This document shows positions 20,521-26,137 of a stretch of 53,420 nucleotides of DNA, piece after piece. Position numbers and translations under genes: made by a program. Position 1 is the first letter of the stretch, and the number at the start of each line of letters is the position of its first letter. This DNA is from Candidatus Brocadia sp. (lineage in GTDB: Bacteria > Planctomycetota > Brocadiia > Brocadiales > Brocadiaceae), in NCBI GenBank assembly GCA_011525665.1, contig WYAU01000072.1:1-53420 (forward strand), read 5' to 3'. A model generated the notes under the pieces. It worked only from the letters and a program-made list of their open reading frames with translations. It did no database searches and was not told where the DNA came from.

Positions 20521-20817
20521 ATGGAAAATACTTATACCTGTGGAACATGTGGTTTGGTAACGACAAGTAAGGGACACCTTTGTAACCCGATACCTGCAAA
20601 AAAGGTTGTTGCATGCAAATTTTGCGGTACGGTGAGTGGTGACCCCCGGCACGTGTGTGCACCCCAGGTCGTAAATTTGAAATATATCTGTGACTCATGC
20701 GGCCGGCTTGCCTCGAAGCGCGATATGCTTTGCCGTCCTTCTCCCATACCAAAAGAGAAAAAGACAGTCAAAAGGACTGTTTCAAAAAAAGCGGGAAAAT
20801 CTAAAAAATCAAAGTAA
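20521..20817 (+). CDS. Small zinc-ribbon protein with a lysine-rich tail
   Basis: 98 residues, 14 bases after the NapH-like gene with GAGAGGG before the ATG, so probably in one operon. Three Cys clusters follow in a row: YTCGTCGLVTTSKGHLC, ACKFCGTVSGDPRHVC and YICDSCGRLASKRDMLC. Each is a CxxC followed 10-11 residues later by HxC or a lone Cys, suggesting three zinc knuckles. The last 25 residues are mostly Lys, Ser and Thr. It resembles small zinc-ribbon proteins that bind nucleic acids, but I recognise no named family. Confidence 0.7.
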   Translation: MENTYTCGTCGLVTTSKGHLCNPIPAKKVVACKFCGTVSGDPRHVCAPQVVNLKYICDSCGRLASKRDMLCRPSPIPKEKKTVKRTVSKKAGKSKKSK

Positions 20818-21128: not shown

Positions 21129-21156
21129 TTGACATAGAATGGTGCAGGGCTAAAAT
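21129..21156 (+). promoter_or_regulatory. Promoter ahead of the riboswitch
   Basis: TTGACA (21129-21134) and TAAAAT (21151-21156) with a 16-base spacer. Transcription would start near 21163, about 40 bases before the aptamer. The stretch 20942-21128 shows no gene or tRNA. Confidence 0.65.
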
Positions 21157-21207
21157 AATGTCGCAGTAAAATTTATTTTCAATAAACAATAAGTAGCCAT
21201 ACACATT

Positions 21208-21311
21208 CAGATAAAGGCAAACCCTGGGTAACCAGGGGACGCAAAGTAAAGGGTCTTTTTAGGGGCGTATTGCAATACACCCTAACACTGTAAAAAGATA
21301 GCCTTACTGCC
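21208..21311 (+). promoter_or_regulatory. Cyclic di-GMP-I (GEMM) riboswitch aptamer
   Basis: The conserved parts occur in order. AAAGGCAAACC (21213-21222) comes first, then a CTGG-GTAA-CCAG hairpin with a GNRA tetraloop, GGGACGCAAAG (21236-21246) and GGGTCTTTTT. A long second stem has TCTTTTT (21254-21260) pairing AAAAAGA (21292-21298), capped by GTATTGCAATAC. It ends with GATAGCC...CTGCC (21297-21311). This follows the GEMM-I consensus. The base aligned with position 20 of the Vibrio Vc2 aptamer reads G, which is the c-di-GMP form, while A would mark the cGAMP-binding variant. The 3' part overlaps the terminator that follows. The riboswitch precedes a small zinc-ribbon gene and then nrfHA. 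Confidence 0.85.
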
Positions 21312-21360
21312 AAAGATGTTTTCCGAAAAAATCTTTGCAGTAAGGCTTTTTTTGTTTTTA
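21300..21360 (+). terminator. Riboswitch-controlled intrinsic terminator
   Basis: AGCCTTACTG (21300-21309), a bulged C and CAAAGAT pair with ATCTTTG and CAGTAAGGCT (21331-21347), followed by a T-rich run. The 5' arm includes the last 12 bases of the aptamer, so the two folds exclude each other. Ligand binding should block the terminator and turn the downstream gene on. That direction is inferred from the overlap. Confidence 0.88.
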
Positions 21361-21464
21361 AGATGGGTATACCAAAAAGTGAAATATTTGGAACAATATT
21401 GTACAGAGTTTTGTTTTTTTAATCGATTGTAATTTATCTTTATTAACCATTTCAGGAGTTCATG

Positions 21465-21731
21465 ATGAGTATCCAGCATAAAGAAAAATCAAAGCGCAAA
21501 ACCTTAAAAAAATACAATGAAAAAAACCTTTCCCTGAAAAATGTTTATACCGATAAGGCGGAAAGGAGTTGTCTTATGTGCGGAAAAAAATTTATTAGCC
21601 GGGGGCCACACAACAGGAGATGCCCAAAGTGTAACCAGAAAATAGATCAGGCAGCAGAAAACACGTTCTATATGCCGACAGTATATAATAACGATGGCAG
21701 CCCTGCGGGAGATTTTACGTCGGTAAGTTAA
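21465..21731 (+). CDS. Small zinc-ribbon protein under riboswitch control
   Basis: 88 residues from the second of two adjacent ATGs; AGGAG lies six bases before it. The N-terminal 30 residues are very basic (KEKSKRKTLKKYNEK). One zinc ribbon follows (SCLMCGKKFISRGPHNRRCPKC, two CxxC pairs), then a short polar tail. I recognise no named family. It is the first gene after the c-di-GMP aptamer and terminator and has its own terminator at 21757-21797, so it appears to be the main target. A nucleic-acid-binding regulator is a reasonable guess, not shown. Confidence 0.7.
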   Translation: MSIQHKEKSKRKTLKKYNEKNLSLKNVYTDKAERSCLMCGKKFISRGPHNRRCPKCNQKIDQAAENTFYMPTVYNNDGSPAGDFTSVS

Positions 21732-21756
21732 TAGTAAGCAGAAGAAATTGCGGTAC

Positions 21757-21797
21757 AAAAAAGGGTCGGGTGATAATCTATTACCTGACCCTTTTTT
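21757..21797. terminator. Terminator between the zinc-ribbon gene and nrfH
   Basis: AAAAAAGGGTC (about 21757-21766) pairs with GACCCTTTTTT (21787-21797), with a secondary GGT/ACC pairing inside. Because A-runs and T-runs flank both sides it could work in both directions. It separates the riboswitch gene from nrfHA, though read-through is possible. Confidence 0.75.
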
Positions 21798-21813
21798 GTT
21801 GTCAGATTATTTT

Positions 21814-21844
21814 TTGCGTTTTTACCAGAAAAATAGTTTATAAT
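21814..21844 (+). promoter_or_regulatory. Candidate promoter for nrfHA
   Basis: TATAAT at 21839-21844 is a perfect -10 box. The best -35 match is TTGCGT (21814-21819) at a long 19-base spacing. Transcription would start near 21851, 51 bases before nrfH, which supports the nrfH start at 21902. Confidence 0.5.
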
Positions 21845-21901: not shown

Positions 21902-22372
21902 ATGCGGGTCTTAGGGGGTTTAAAATTTTTCGTTCTCTTCATGTATTGTTGTGTGGGGATATTCATTGGTTTATGCGGTTACACGTTTTATTATGCGAAT
22001 GGGGCATCCTATCTGTCCAACGAACCGAGGGCTTGCGTTAACTGCCATATCATGCGTGAACAATACGATGGCTGGCAAAAGGCAAGTCATCACGCGGTTG
22101 CAACGTGCAACGATTGCCATATACCGCATGAGTTCGTGCAAAAATATCTCACAAAGCTAAAAAACGGTTTCTGGCATTCGAAGGGCTTTACCCTGCAGGA
22201 CTTCAGTGAGCCAATCCGGATACTGCCGGAGAATCGTGTTATTTTGCAAAAGAATTGTTTGTATTGTCACGGAGAATTTGTGAGCGAGATTGCTGTCCAT
22301 CCGGGCAATGATCAGCAAATGCTGGATTGTATCCATTGTCACAACCGTGTCGGCCACGGTCCGTCACGTTAG
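21902..22372 (+). CDS. nrfH: Cytochrome c nitrite reductase small subunit, NapC/NirT-type tetraheme
   Basis: A 156-residue membrane-anchored quinol dehydrogenase that feeds electrons to NrfA. It has one N-terminal transmembrane segment (residues 6-33) and four heme motifs: CVNCH 45-49, CNDCH 69-73, CLYCH 119-123 and CIHCH 143-147. Heme 1 reads CVNCHIM, with the Met two residues after the His that is the axial ligand in Desulfovibrio NrfH. The start at ATG 21902 was preferred to one 44 codons upstream, because that one lies inside the terminator and before the -10 box. nrfA follows 19 bases later. Confidence 0.9.
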   Translation: MRVLGGLKFFVLFMYCCVGIFIGLCGYTFYYANGASYLSNEPRACVNCHIMREQYDGWQKASHHAVATCNDCHIPHEFVQKYLTKLKNGFWHSKGFTLQDFSEPIRILPENRVILQKNCLYCHGEFVSEIAVHPGNDQQMLDCIHCHNRVGHGPSR

Positions 22373-22391: not shown

Positions 22392-23831
22392 ATGAACCAT
22401 CAATCGCCGGTTCGTTTTCGGGATAATACGAAGATTTTCTGTTTGCTCATAATTGTTGTAGTAGCCGCAGCGACGGTGGGTGTAGTTCTTCTGTTAAAAA
22501 ATGTTGTCCGGCGCAAGGAAGAGGCGAAACAGTATGTCTTTCGTGTGGTAGAAGTGACGGAGGATACCATCGATCCCGTTATGTGGGGCAAAAATTATCC
22601 CCGTCAATATGATGGGTATCGGCGGACGGTTGATATGGAGCGTACCCGGCATGGCGGAAGCGAAGCCTTCAACAGGCTTGACGAATATCCGCACTGGCGC
22701 GAGATCTTTAAAGGCTATGCCTTCGGCGTGGATTATCGTGAAGATCGCGGACATGGCTACATGCTGTCCGACCAGGACATAACGGAACGTATAAAAATTG
22801 TCAAGCAGCCAGGCGCATGTTTGCACTGCCATTCTTCTGTCCTGCCCGCCTATCGCGAGGCAGGCATTAAAGCTGGTGTGCCAGCGGATGAAGCCCATAG
22901 GCGCGAGCAAATTATGAAAGGTTTTGAAATAGTCTGTGCCATGCCATATAGTGATGCCCGCAAGATGGTTTCCCATCCGGTATCCTGTGTAGATTGCCAT
23001 GATCCGGAGACTATGCAATTACGCGTAACCCGGCCTGCCTTTCTCAATGCGATTCAGGTATTGGCCAGATCGGATTATCCGTTGCCCCATTTACCCAGCA
23101 TTGAGCGCTGGCGCAACGATGGGCGTAAAGGTGAGTATGACGTCAACACCATGGCAACACGACAAGAAATGCGTTCATTTGCCTGCGGTCAATGTCATGT
23201 AGAGTATTACTTTCGAGGCGAAGGCAAGCTCTTAACGTATCCGTGGCAGAAAGGGATGAGGGTAGACCAGATCGGGGATTATTATGATGAAGAGGGCTTT
23301 AAAGATTGGACTCACAAAGCTACAGGTGCACCCGTACTCAAAGCCCAGCATCCCGAATTTGAAATGTGGAGCCAGGGGATTCATGCCCGCAGCGGCGTGG
23401 CATGTGCGGATTGCCATATGCCTTACAAGCGGGAAGGTGCAATCAAGATCAGCGATCACCATGTGCGCAGTCCGTTATTGAACATTTCCACTGCATGTCA
23501 GACCTGTCATCATTTCAGCGAATCGGAACTCAGGGAGCGTGTCGAATTGATTCAGGACCGCACGAGAGACTTAATGGCCCGTGCTGAGGTTGCGGTTGTT
23601 GCTCTTATTCACGATTTACAACAGGCGCAGGAATTTGGAGTACCTGCTGAACGATTGAAAGCAGCGCAAGCCCTGCACCGTAAGGCTCAGTGGAGATTGG
23701 ACTTTGTGGCGGCAGAAAATTCCATGGGCTTCCACGCCCCGCAGGAAGCCGTACGGATTCTAGGTGAGGCGATCGATTATGCACGGCAGGGGCAGCTTGA
23801 GGTATTAAAATTGGAAACATCGACACGTTAA
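22392..23831 (+). CDS. nrfA: Ammonia-forming cytochrome c nitrite reductase (pentaheme)
   Basis: A 479-residue protein reducing nitrite to ammonium with six electrons in the periplasm or paryphoplasm. It has an N-terminal membrane anchor or signal (residues 15-36) and five heme motifs at 143-147, 199-203, 265-269, 338-342 and 369-373. The first, catalytic, motif is CLHCH rather than the usual CxxCK, so the proximal ligand would be His. The active-site set looks present: YREDRGHGYM (Arg), CGQCHVEYYF (Tyr), WSQGIHARSGVACADCH (His331) and the NSMGFHAPQEA helix. The start at ATG 22392 has GAGGAG upstream. It follows nrfH by 19 bases in a clear two-gene unit. Confidence 0.93.
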   Translation: MNHQSPVRFRDNTKIFCLLIIVVVAAATVGVVLLLKNVVRRKEEAKQYVFRVVEVTEDTIDPVMWGKNYPRQYDGYRRTVDMERTRHGGSEAFNRLDEYPHWREIFKGYAFGVDYREDRGHGYMLSDQDITERIKIVKQPGACLHCHSSVLPAYREAGIKAGVPADEAHRREQIMKGFEIVCAMPYSDARKMVSHPVSCVDCHDPETMQLRVTRPAFLNAIQVLARSDYPLPHLPSIERWRNDGRKGEYDVNTMATRQEMRSFACGQCHVEYYFRGEGKLLTYPWQKGMRVDQIGDYYDEEGFKDWTHKATGAPVLKAQHPEFEMWSQGIHARSGVACADCHMPYKREGAIKISDHHVRSPLLNISTACQTCHHFSESELRERVELIQDRTRDLMARAEVAVVALIHDLQQAQEFGVPAERLKAAQALHRKAQWRLDFVAAENSMGFHAPQEAVRILGEAIDYARQGQLEVLKLETSTR

Positions 23832-24091: not shown

Positions 24092-26137
24092 TTAAGAAAT
24101 ATCTTTTGGCGGTTTGAAGGGGAGTGCAAAGGTAAAGGTGCTCCCTTTCCCATATTCGCTTTTTACCCATATTTTTCCGCCGTGCAATTCGACCAGCCGT
24201 TTTGTAAGCGCCAGGCCAAGCCCTGTTCCTTCGTACCGGCGTGCATACGAGCTATCTACCTGACGAAACGCCTCAAACAATTTGTCCATATCTTCCGGTT
24301 TGATGCCGATGCCAGTGTCGCTCACTCCGATCTGGATATGCTGGTTTGAAAGCTTTACGCTGATGGTTATTCTGCCATTTTCCGGGGTGAACTTGACGGC
24401 GTTGGATAACAGATTGAACAGGATCTGTTTAAATTTTACTTTATCCGCCGCAAGAGAAGGTATGTCATCATGGATATGTGTATGTACGCTGATGCCCTTC
24501 TTGCGGGAAGATCCCAGGATCGTATTCACTACCTCGTTGATGGTCTCTTCTACAGGAAACTCCTCGTACTGGAGTTCTAATTTCCCGGCCTCAATCTTTG
24601 AAAGATCGAGGATGCTGTTAATCATATTGAGCAGGTGCTGTCCGCTGCTGTGGATATCGCCCACGTATTCCTTCTGTTCTGTGTTGAGGGTTCCGGTGAT
24701 TTCGTCCCTCAAAACCTCAGCAAAACCAATGATGGCGTTCAGGGGGGTACGAAGTTCGTGAGACATCGTTGACAAAAACTCCGATTTCAGCCTGTTGGCC
24801 TTTTCGAGCGCGATATTTGCCCTCTGCAACTCCCCGGTTCTTTCTTCAACCTTTTTTTCCAGGATGACGTTCAGGTCCTGAAGTCTGGTGATACGGATAA
24901 AATCAAGCCAGGATGCCACGTCTTCGTATTCAGCGACGTTAAGTCCTCTCTTTTCTTCTTCCGGACTTACACGGATGCCTACAATCTTCTTAAGGCACCA
25001 GAAAAAAAGCATTCCCATTCCGAATGCCCACACAAAGGCGGCTCCGGCGCCCGCTGCCTGGATACCGAGCTGATGCAATCGGTTACCGCTTTCTACCAGG
25101 AGGGTCGATTTTTCTGCAAAAGGAGCGACGCAAAGGGTGCCAATAACACCGCCGACGCCGTGAACTGCAACGGCTGCGACGGGGTCGTCGATTTTCACTA
25201 TCTTTTCAAAAAAATCCTGGGAAAGGATTGACACAATGCCGGCAATTAAACCAATACACACGGCGCCCTCGGGATTTACCCTGTTTGAGCCTGCCGTTAT
25301 GGCAACCAGACCGGCCAATACTGCCGTAAAGAGTTTTCCCGCGTTCAGTCTCTTTTCCATTACGTAATTAAATATAAGCGCTGAAGCTCCGGCCGCTGCC
25401 GGCGCCAGATTTGTGTTGGTAATGACAAGACCAATGTCAGCGCTGGCCCTGAGGAGGCTCCCTCCGTTAAATCCGAACCAGCCAAACCAGAGGAAAAAGG
25501 TGCCCAGTGTAGCCAGAGGAATATTATGCAACCCCATTCGGTTTGAAGAACCGTCAGGGTTATACTTGCCAATTCTTGGACCTACAACCATGGCCCCGGC
25601 AAGGGCGAACCATCCTCCAACCGAATGTACCACGGTAGAACCTGCAAAATCGATAAACCCCAATCTTCCCAGCCAACCGGACTGCTCCGGACAGAAGAGA
25701 TTTCCCCATGCCCAATGGCCGAAGATCGGATAGATAATGCCCGTTACGAACACGACTCCCAGGGCATTCGAAATAAAACTCGAACGTTCTGCTATGGCGC
25801 CCGTCAGTATGGTAGCAGCAGTGGCGGCGAATACCAGCTGGAAAAAGAAAAAACTGAACGCCAGGTTGCCCTGATGTGCCATCACACCCCGGGCAAAGAA
25901 ATGATCTAATCCAATCCACCCCACATGACTCTTTCCAAACATAAATCCAAATCCAAAGGTATAAAACACCAGAGAAGCTATGACGGTGACCATAAGGTTT
26001 CTGATAGAAACGCTAATGGCATTCTTGGATTGTGCGAAGCCCGCTTCATAGGAGGTAAAACCGAGTTGCATGAAGAATACCATGCATGCTGCCGCCATAA
26101 CCCAGATATGGTTGATATTTATCTGTATGCCTTCCAT
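24092..26137 (-). CDS. Ammonium transporter-histidine kinase fusion (Amt sensor kinase)
   Basis: 681 residues. The first 385 are a complete Amt/Rh domain with 11 hydrophobic segments, IDFAGSTVVHSVGG (Asp163 and pore His171) and AVAVHGVGGVIG (pore His326). A cytosolic linker and coiled coil (about 405-450) lead to HisKA, with the phospho-accepting His460 in STMSHELRTPLNAIIGF. A HATPase domain follows with N (FNLLSNAVKFTPENG), G1 (DTGIGI) and G2 (GTGLGLAL) boxes. There is no receiver domain. A protein of this plan from Kuenenia has been described as an ammonium-sensing kinase that does not conduct ammonium. Its response regulator is not adjacent. The gene starts 24 bases after the membrane protein upstream. 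Confidence 0.93.
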   Translation of the reverse strand: MEGIQININHIWVMAAACMVFFMQLGFTSYEAGFAQSKNAISVSIRNLMVTVIASLVFYTFGFGFMFGKSHVGWIGLDHFFARGVMAHQGNLAFSFFFFQLVFAATAATILTGAIAERSSFISNALGVVFVTGIIYPIFGHWAWGNLFCPEQSGWLGRLGFIDFAGSTVVHSVGGWFALAGAMVVGPRIGKYNPDGSSNRMGLHNIPLATLGTFFLWFGWFGFNGGSLLRASADIGLVITNTNLAPAAAGASALIFNYVMEKRLNAGKLFTAVLAGLVAITAGSNRVNPEGAVCIGLIAGIVSILSQDFFEKIVKIDDPVAAVAVHGVGGVIGTLCVAPFAEKSTLLVESGNRLHQLGIQAAGAGAAFVWAFGMGMLFFWCLKKIVGIRVSPEEEKRGLNVAEYEDVASWLDFIRITRLQDLNVILEKKVEERTGELQRANIALEKANRLKSEFLSTMSHELRTPLNAIIGFAEVLRDEITGTLNTEQKEYVGDIHSSGQHLLNMINSILDLSKIEAGKLELQYEEFPVEETINEVVNTILGSSRKKGISVHTHIHDDIPSLAADKVKFKQILFNLLSNAVKFTPENGRITISVKLSNQHIQIGVSDTGIGIKPEDMDKLFEAFRQVDSSYARRYEGTGLGLALTKRLVELHGGKIWVKSEYGKGSTFTFALPFKPPKDIS

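Follow-up and report, generated by a model that had tools for sequence, protein, structure and literature searches.

A predicted c-di-GMP ON riboswitch upstream of a zinc-ribbon gene in Candidatus Brocadia belongs to a set of about 35 near-copies in the genome

When a riboswitch stands before a small zinc-ribbon gene that is followed on the same strand by genes of nitrite reduction, one may ask which of these genes it serves, which ligand it answers to and in which direction it switches. Such a case occurs in a contig of Candidatus Brocadia, the whole of which (53,420 nucleotides, forward strand) is referred to here as the window. An earlier note, made from the bare sequence, had proposed that in this anammox-type cell, a host type borne out by the organism's identity, a c-di-GMP-I (GEMM-I) riboswitch brings a second-messenger input to dissimilatory nitrite reduction. 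The explanation that in our opinion accounts best for the whole, and in which we have considerable confidence, is an ordinary class-I c-di-GMP ON switch that acts on the zinc-ribbon gene, is laid over an older promoter of that gene and leaves the nitrite reductase genes nrfHA separate.

The earlier note had staked its aptamer on a match above the gathering threshold of the Rfam model RF01051, and the aptamer withstood this search: used alone against the window, the model matches positions 21206-21314 of the forward strand over its full length (1-87) with 67.6 bits (E 5.8e-13; gathering score 35 bits), which is the top score among the 35 matches above threshold in this genome. The match shares with the Vc2 type of RF01051, known from Vibrio cholerae, its architecture, the GGCAAACC and GGACGCAAAG blocks, the P2 tetraloop and the bases G20, A47 and C92, whereas it differs in having a long variable P3 loop and a P1 made of ACAU/AUGU, an internal loop and one G-C pair. 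Since the inner P1 of the window copy contains an A/A mismatch, this helix depends on that single G-C and on the outer pairing of ACAU (21203-21206, forward strand) with AUGU (21316-21319). The outer pairing displays a compensatory change, being C-G in five genomes and U-A, altered on both sides, in four; its covariation score in the orthologues was matched by 4 of 500 shuffles, while across 36 paralogues the excess of pairing over shuffles is small (47 of 3000 shuffles reach it). The pairs of P2 and P3 are 98% kept across 11 Brocadia genomes.

The riboswitch transcript has a sigma-70-like promoter at 21129-21156 (TTGACA-N16-TAAAAT, forward strand), as had been claimed; it agrees with 11 of 12 consensus bases, is the sole forward promoter that we found nearby, and its TTGACA is invariant, and its -10 element nearly so, in all 11 Brocadia. 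Indeed, promoter, aptamer and terminator are together nearly invariant in these 11 species, and the flanks are variable. The intrinsic terminator (21300-21353, forward strand, about -23.5 kcal/mol) consists of a 5' arm at 21300-21317, a 3' arm at 21331-21347 and a U-tract. Its 5' arm, AGCCUUACUGC-C-AAAGAU, comprises the aptamer 3' strand and a few further bases, so the re-use described in the earlier note is real, although the overlap is longer than the 12 bases given there. All 11 Brocadia show the same re-use, as do at least 33 of the 36 paralogues, and the pairs of the terminator are 99.5% kept across the 11 genomes. P3 and terminator pairs thus hardly vary and demonstrate conservation and no covariation, which is scarce because one strand must serve both aptamer and terminator and is hence near-constant. 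When growing transcripts were folded ligand-free by minimum free energy, a procedure that does not itself recover the native aptamer fold, the aptamer 3' strand was unpaired or otherwise paired before the 3' arm of the terminator emerged, and the structure became the terminator once that arm was transcribed. In short transcripts a leader GCAGUAA (near 21163-21169) paired with the 3' strand of P3 in this folding; it is absent in the orthologues and we take it as chance.

What we find, then, is the hallmark of antitermination, an intrinsic terminator mutually exclusive with the aptamer, in agreement with the earlier note, and because the shared strand recurs in 11 species and in the paralogues, an ON switch is the best reading of it; the ON logic that had been proposed thereby gains support from a terminator design common to 11 Brocadia. 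From sequence, predicted structure and conservation we infer that switching would proceed as follows. RNA polymerase would begin at 21129-21156; with the ligand absent, 21300-21317 would pair with 21331-21347, forming the terminator and stopping transcription before the gene, while with c-di-GMP bound, P1 and P3 would retain the 3' strand, no terminator would form and the zinc-ribbon gene would be transcribed. The pilM riboswitch of Geobacter metallireducens is likewise a transcriptional ON switch in which aptamer and terminator exclude each other, but it answers to cGAMP (PMC9262584), whereas in Brocadia G20 and the set of GGDEF domains indicate c-di-GMP.

The direction of switching has a competitor in which the ligand represses, through an OFF switch or translational control, or in which the aptamer is a decayed copy devoid of function, and the short, partly mismatched P1 of the window copy could be cited in its favor. 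Repression at the level of translation, however, fits poorly with a ribosome site that lies 140 nt off, and a terminator that needs the aptamer's own strand should be opposed by the ligand, not assisted by it. Decay is at odds with a core that is near-invariant among 11 species, and we regard all these possibilities as highly improbable. For the ligand of the ON switch the competing view is that the aptamer is either a member of the variant family c-di-GMP-I-GGC (RF03167) that senses another ligand or a cGAMP sensor of the Geobacter GEMM-Ib kind. Like members of the former family, the window sequence scores above the RF03167 gathering score (64.8 bits at 21207-21315); this is the model that cmscan prefers for the window, and it also wins the clan competition for the orthologous aptamers. 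RF01051 nevertheless yields more bits (67.6), and model position 37, a G in the RF03167 consensus, is occupied by A in the window and in every clear paralogue. We take this position to be A47 of Vc2, in a numbering that is our own and was obtained through the offset of the RF03167 alignment, and positions 20, 47 and 92 to be those that contact the ligand; the name GGC presumably denotes the bases at these three, so that the window copy is without G at the very position that would help to give the family its name. In the aligned sequences G20, A47 and C92 are present in all clear copies of the genome, and A at 47 together with G20 and C92 is the contact set of an ordinary c-di-GMP aptamer. We therefore rejected c-di-GMP-I-GGC as the family on account of A47, despite its win in the clan competition. 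As for cGAMP, the riboswitches of type GEMM-Ib that sense it have A at position 20. Here all clear copies have G20, and of the genome's 20 GGDEF domain matches, which with nine EAL matches would provide for messenger turnover, 19 were fetched and the selectivity position was readable in 17, giving 16 Asp, one Asn and no Ser, the residue that marks Hypr cGAMP synthases (PMC6456294). The base at position 20 and the lack of a Hypr Ser thus make cGAMP unlikely, and we give little credence to either ligand alternative; the bases of the aptamer point to c-di-GMP.

The gene that the ON switch would control, named as the direct target in the earlier note, is an open reading frame at 21462-21731 (forward strand) that follows an AGGAG ribosome site and, as described there, encodes a zinc-ribbon protein, of 88-89 amino acids and with a CxxC-13-CxxC core. 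Of the 33 family genomes, 27 have an orthologue, which adjoins the same tRNA-Pro gene in nearly all cases. Pfam, NCBIfam and the PDB gave only sub-threshold zinc-ribbon matches for the protein; in its AF2 model the core is a beta hairpin and a helix, but with a mean pLDDT of only 63 the model was too weak for a fold search. Beyond the tRNA-Pro gene, positions 20521-20817 encode a second small multi-cysteine protein, conserved in many Brocadiaceae, for which Pfam has no family.

Promoter, aptamer and terminator precede the zinc-ribbon gene in 11/11 Brocadia, which speaks for its being the direct target; they are absent from this place in all 16 further Brocadiaceae with the gene. Another element is shared by all 27 genomes: between the position of the terminator and the gene, 70-93 nt ahead of the start codon, lies GGAAC-N17/18-TGTT (N17 in 23 genomes, N18 in four; 21390-21415 of the window, forward strand), the N17 form of which would be expected by chance in 0.013 of 27 shuffled regions. 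GGAAC is the hallmark of the -35 element of ECF sigma promoters, and we therefore take this footprint as the older promoter of the zinc-ribbon gene. Exact GGAAC-N17-TGTT occurs once in the genome, as the window's own copy, and a genome scan for a wider regulon gave 12 near-matches against nine in the reversed control; with no excess of the motif, it is conservation and position that argue for a promoter. Since the footprint occurs in 27/27 genomes and the riboswitch in Brocadia only, the riboswitch unit appears to have been added upstream of it, most likely by a gain of unit and promoter together in the ancestor of Brocadia. Both promoters (21129-21156 and 21390-21415) are presumably in use, and the unit would add a c-di-GMP-dependent layer over existing expression from GGAAC-N17-TGTT.

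That nrfHA follow downstream on the same strand is correct: nrfH (21902-22372, forward strand; TIGR03153, 161.6 bits against a cut-off of 134.2) starts 170 nt past the zinc-ribbon gene and precedes a gene for an nrfA-like pentahaem cytochrome (22392-23831, forward strand; PF02335, 7.5e-130). If transcription read through into them, the riboswitch would also drive nrfHA and give c-di-GMP an input to dissimilatory nitrite reduction, and the narrow gap, the position of nrfH as the next gene in two other Brocadia and the co-orientation of nrfHA within about 2 kb of the zinc-ribbon gene in 5/11 Brocadia (G010 included) may be seen as favoring this. Yet the distance from the zinc-ribbon gene to an nrfH behind it stays within 1.5 kb in the window, L042 and L048 and, with a 1.1 kb insertion in between, in L040, and nowhere else; nrfHA are inverted in G012, lie elsewhere in G003, G004, G005 and G007, and were not found in G008, whereas the zinc-ribbon gene keeps its riboswitch in all 11. 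No riboswitch precedes the separate nrfHA loci that were scanned (G003 was outside the scan). Moreover, a strong terminator (21755-21799, forward strand, -29.9 kcal/mol), with counterparts of other stem sequence in three other Brocadia, separates the zinc-ribbon gene from nrfH, which has a promoter-like block of its own (TTGCGT ... TATAAT, 21814-21844, forward strand) that recurs in other Brocadia; in the ten Brocadia loci that were read, ATTATTTTCTTGCGTTTTTATCAAAATAGTAGTTAATAATC or a close form of it stands upstream of nrfH irrespective of where that gene lies. With nrfHA mobile, equipped with this block and shielded by a terminator, the nitrite-reductase reading of the earlier note is left unsupported, and we rejected nrfHA as a riboswitch target. 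Read-through control seems to us distinctly improbable: nitrite reductase does not appear to be under riboswitch control, and both genes are probably neighbors that would be transcribed independently of it.

Two observations concern this neighborhood. In the NrfA-like protein there are five haem motifs of the form CXXCH and none of the form CXXCK, and its scores fall below the NCBIfam cut-offs for ammonia-forming nitrite reductase. On the reverse strand, 24092-26137 encodes a fusion of an ammonium transporter with a histidine kinase (PF00909 with HisKA and HATPase), of a kind known from Kuenenia.

Taken alone, the zinc-ribbon locus offers a c-di-GMP ON riboswitch of the ordinary kind, and it is the wider regulon that deserves attention. 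Nearly all of the 35 RF01051 matches in the genome have one common aptamer-terminator unit. We compared this number with the family genomes, with sampled planctomycetes and with the count reported for Geobacter sulfurreducens: there are 20-56 copies per genome in Brocadia, 1-28 in other genera of the family and 0-5 in sampled planctomycetes outside it, the last comparison scoring the best 20 candidates per genome, so that the Brocadia counts within it are "at least" values. G. sulfurreducens is reported to have 17 GEMM-I copies, including tandem arrangements (PMC6456294), and in both organisms the copies, partly in tandem, are scattered ahead of genes for cytochromes, the envelope and other functions; the regulon described here differs in its size, in its host, an anammox planctomycete, and in the single expression platform common to most Brocadia copies.

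The first genes behind the copies include those for cytochrome P460, cytochrome c', Kelch, RCC1, Ig-like, beta-helix, M10 and M23 proteins, as well as an amidase, a DUF1559 pseudopilin-like protein, a sigma-54 response regulator and a PAS-GGDEF diguanylate cyclase; many of the recognizable targets are exported or surface proteins, and some are cytochromes or signaling proteins. The start of the cyclase lies 82 nt downstream of an ON-type c-di-GMP riboswitch (L082, G000:C60:252-5675) and the enzyme's GGEEF motif is intact (L187), and an intact cyclase behind an ON switch for its own product would give positive feedback. In B. pituitae at least nine riboswitch-target pairs recur, as judged from 30 of its 45 copies.

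About 35 near-copies in one genome suggest that in anammox bacteria RNA switches place an extensive gene network under c-di-GMP. We lean, with some reservation, towards the view that the c-di-GMP riboswitch regulon of Brocadia ranks among the largest known, with the unit at 20-56 sites, feedback through a cyclase and, at the present locus, an older promoter beneath it. In the open-access literature we found anammox or Brocadia linked to c-di-GMP riboswitches in passing mentions only, and judged from that literature the regulon may be undescribed. If real, it would connect envelope proteins and cytochromes with the state of the granule or biofilm. Anammox bacteria grow in granules and their genetics is difficult; the present analysis provides, for each genome, a list of about 35 genes or operons, defined by sequence, that are predicted to be induced together by c-di-GMP, and with such a list the relation of messenger level to aggregation becomes testable gene by gene, by RNA-seq of granular and planktonic cells and without genetics.

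Several single copies of the riboswitch merit mention. A contractile tail-sheath gene, of an injection system or phage-like, is the second gene behind one copy (L083, G000:C15:15882-21297). Two tandem pairs (L075 and L087, G000:C17) each precede a single exported-protein gene, and in L075 either copy has a separate terminator. In another copy (L078, G000:C71:6725-6850) the P3 3' strand is doubled in succession (GGCCUUACUGC / AGCCUUACUGCC). Finally, B. pituitae also carries a second c-di-GMP-I subtype (L147, L148, L150 and L151) that is without the shared AGCCTTACTGCC platform, with two of its copies close together.
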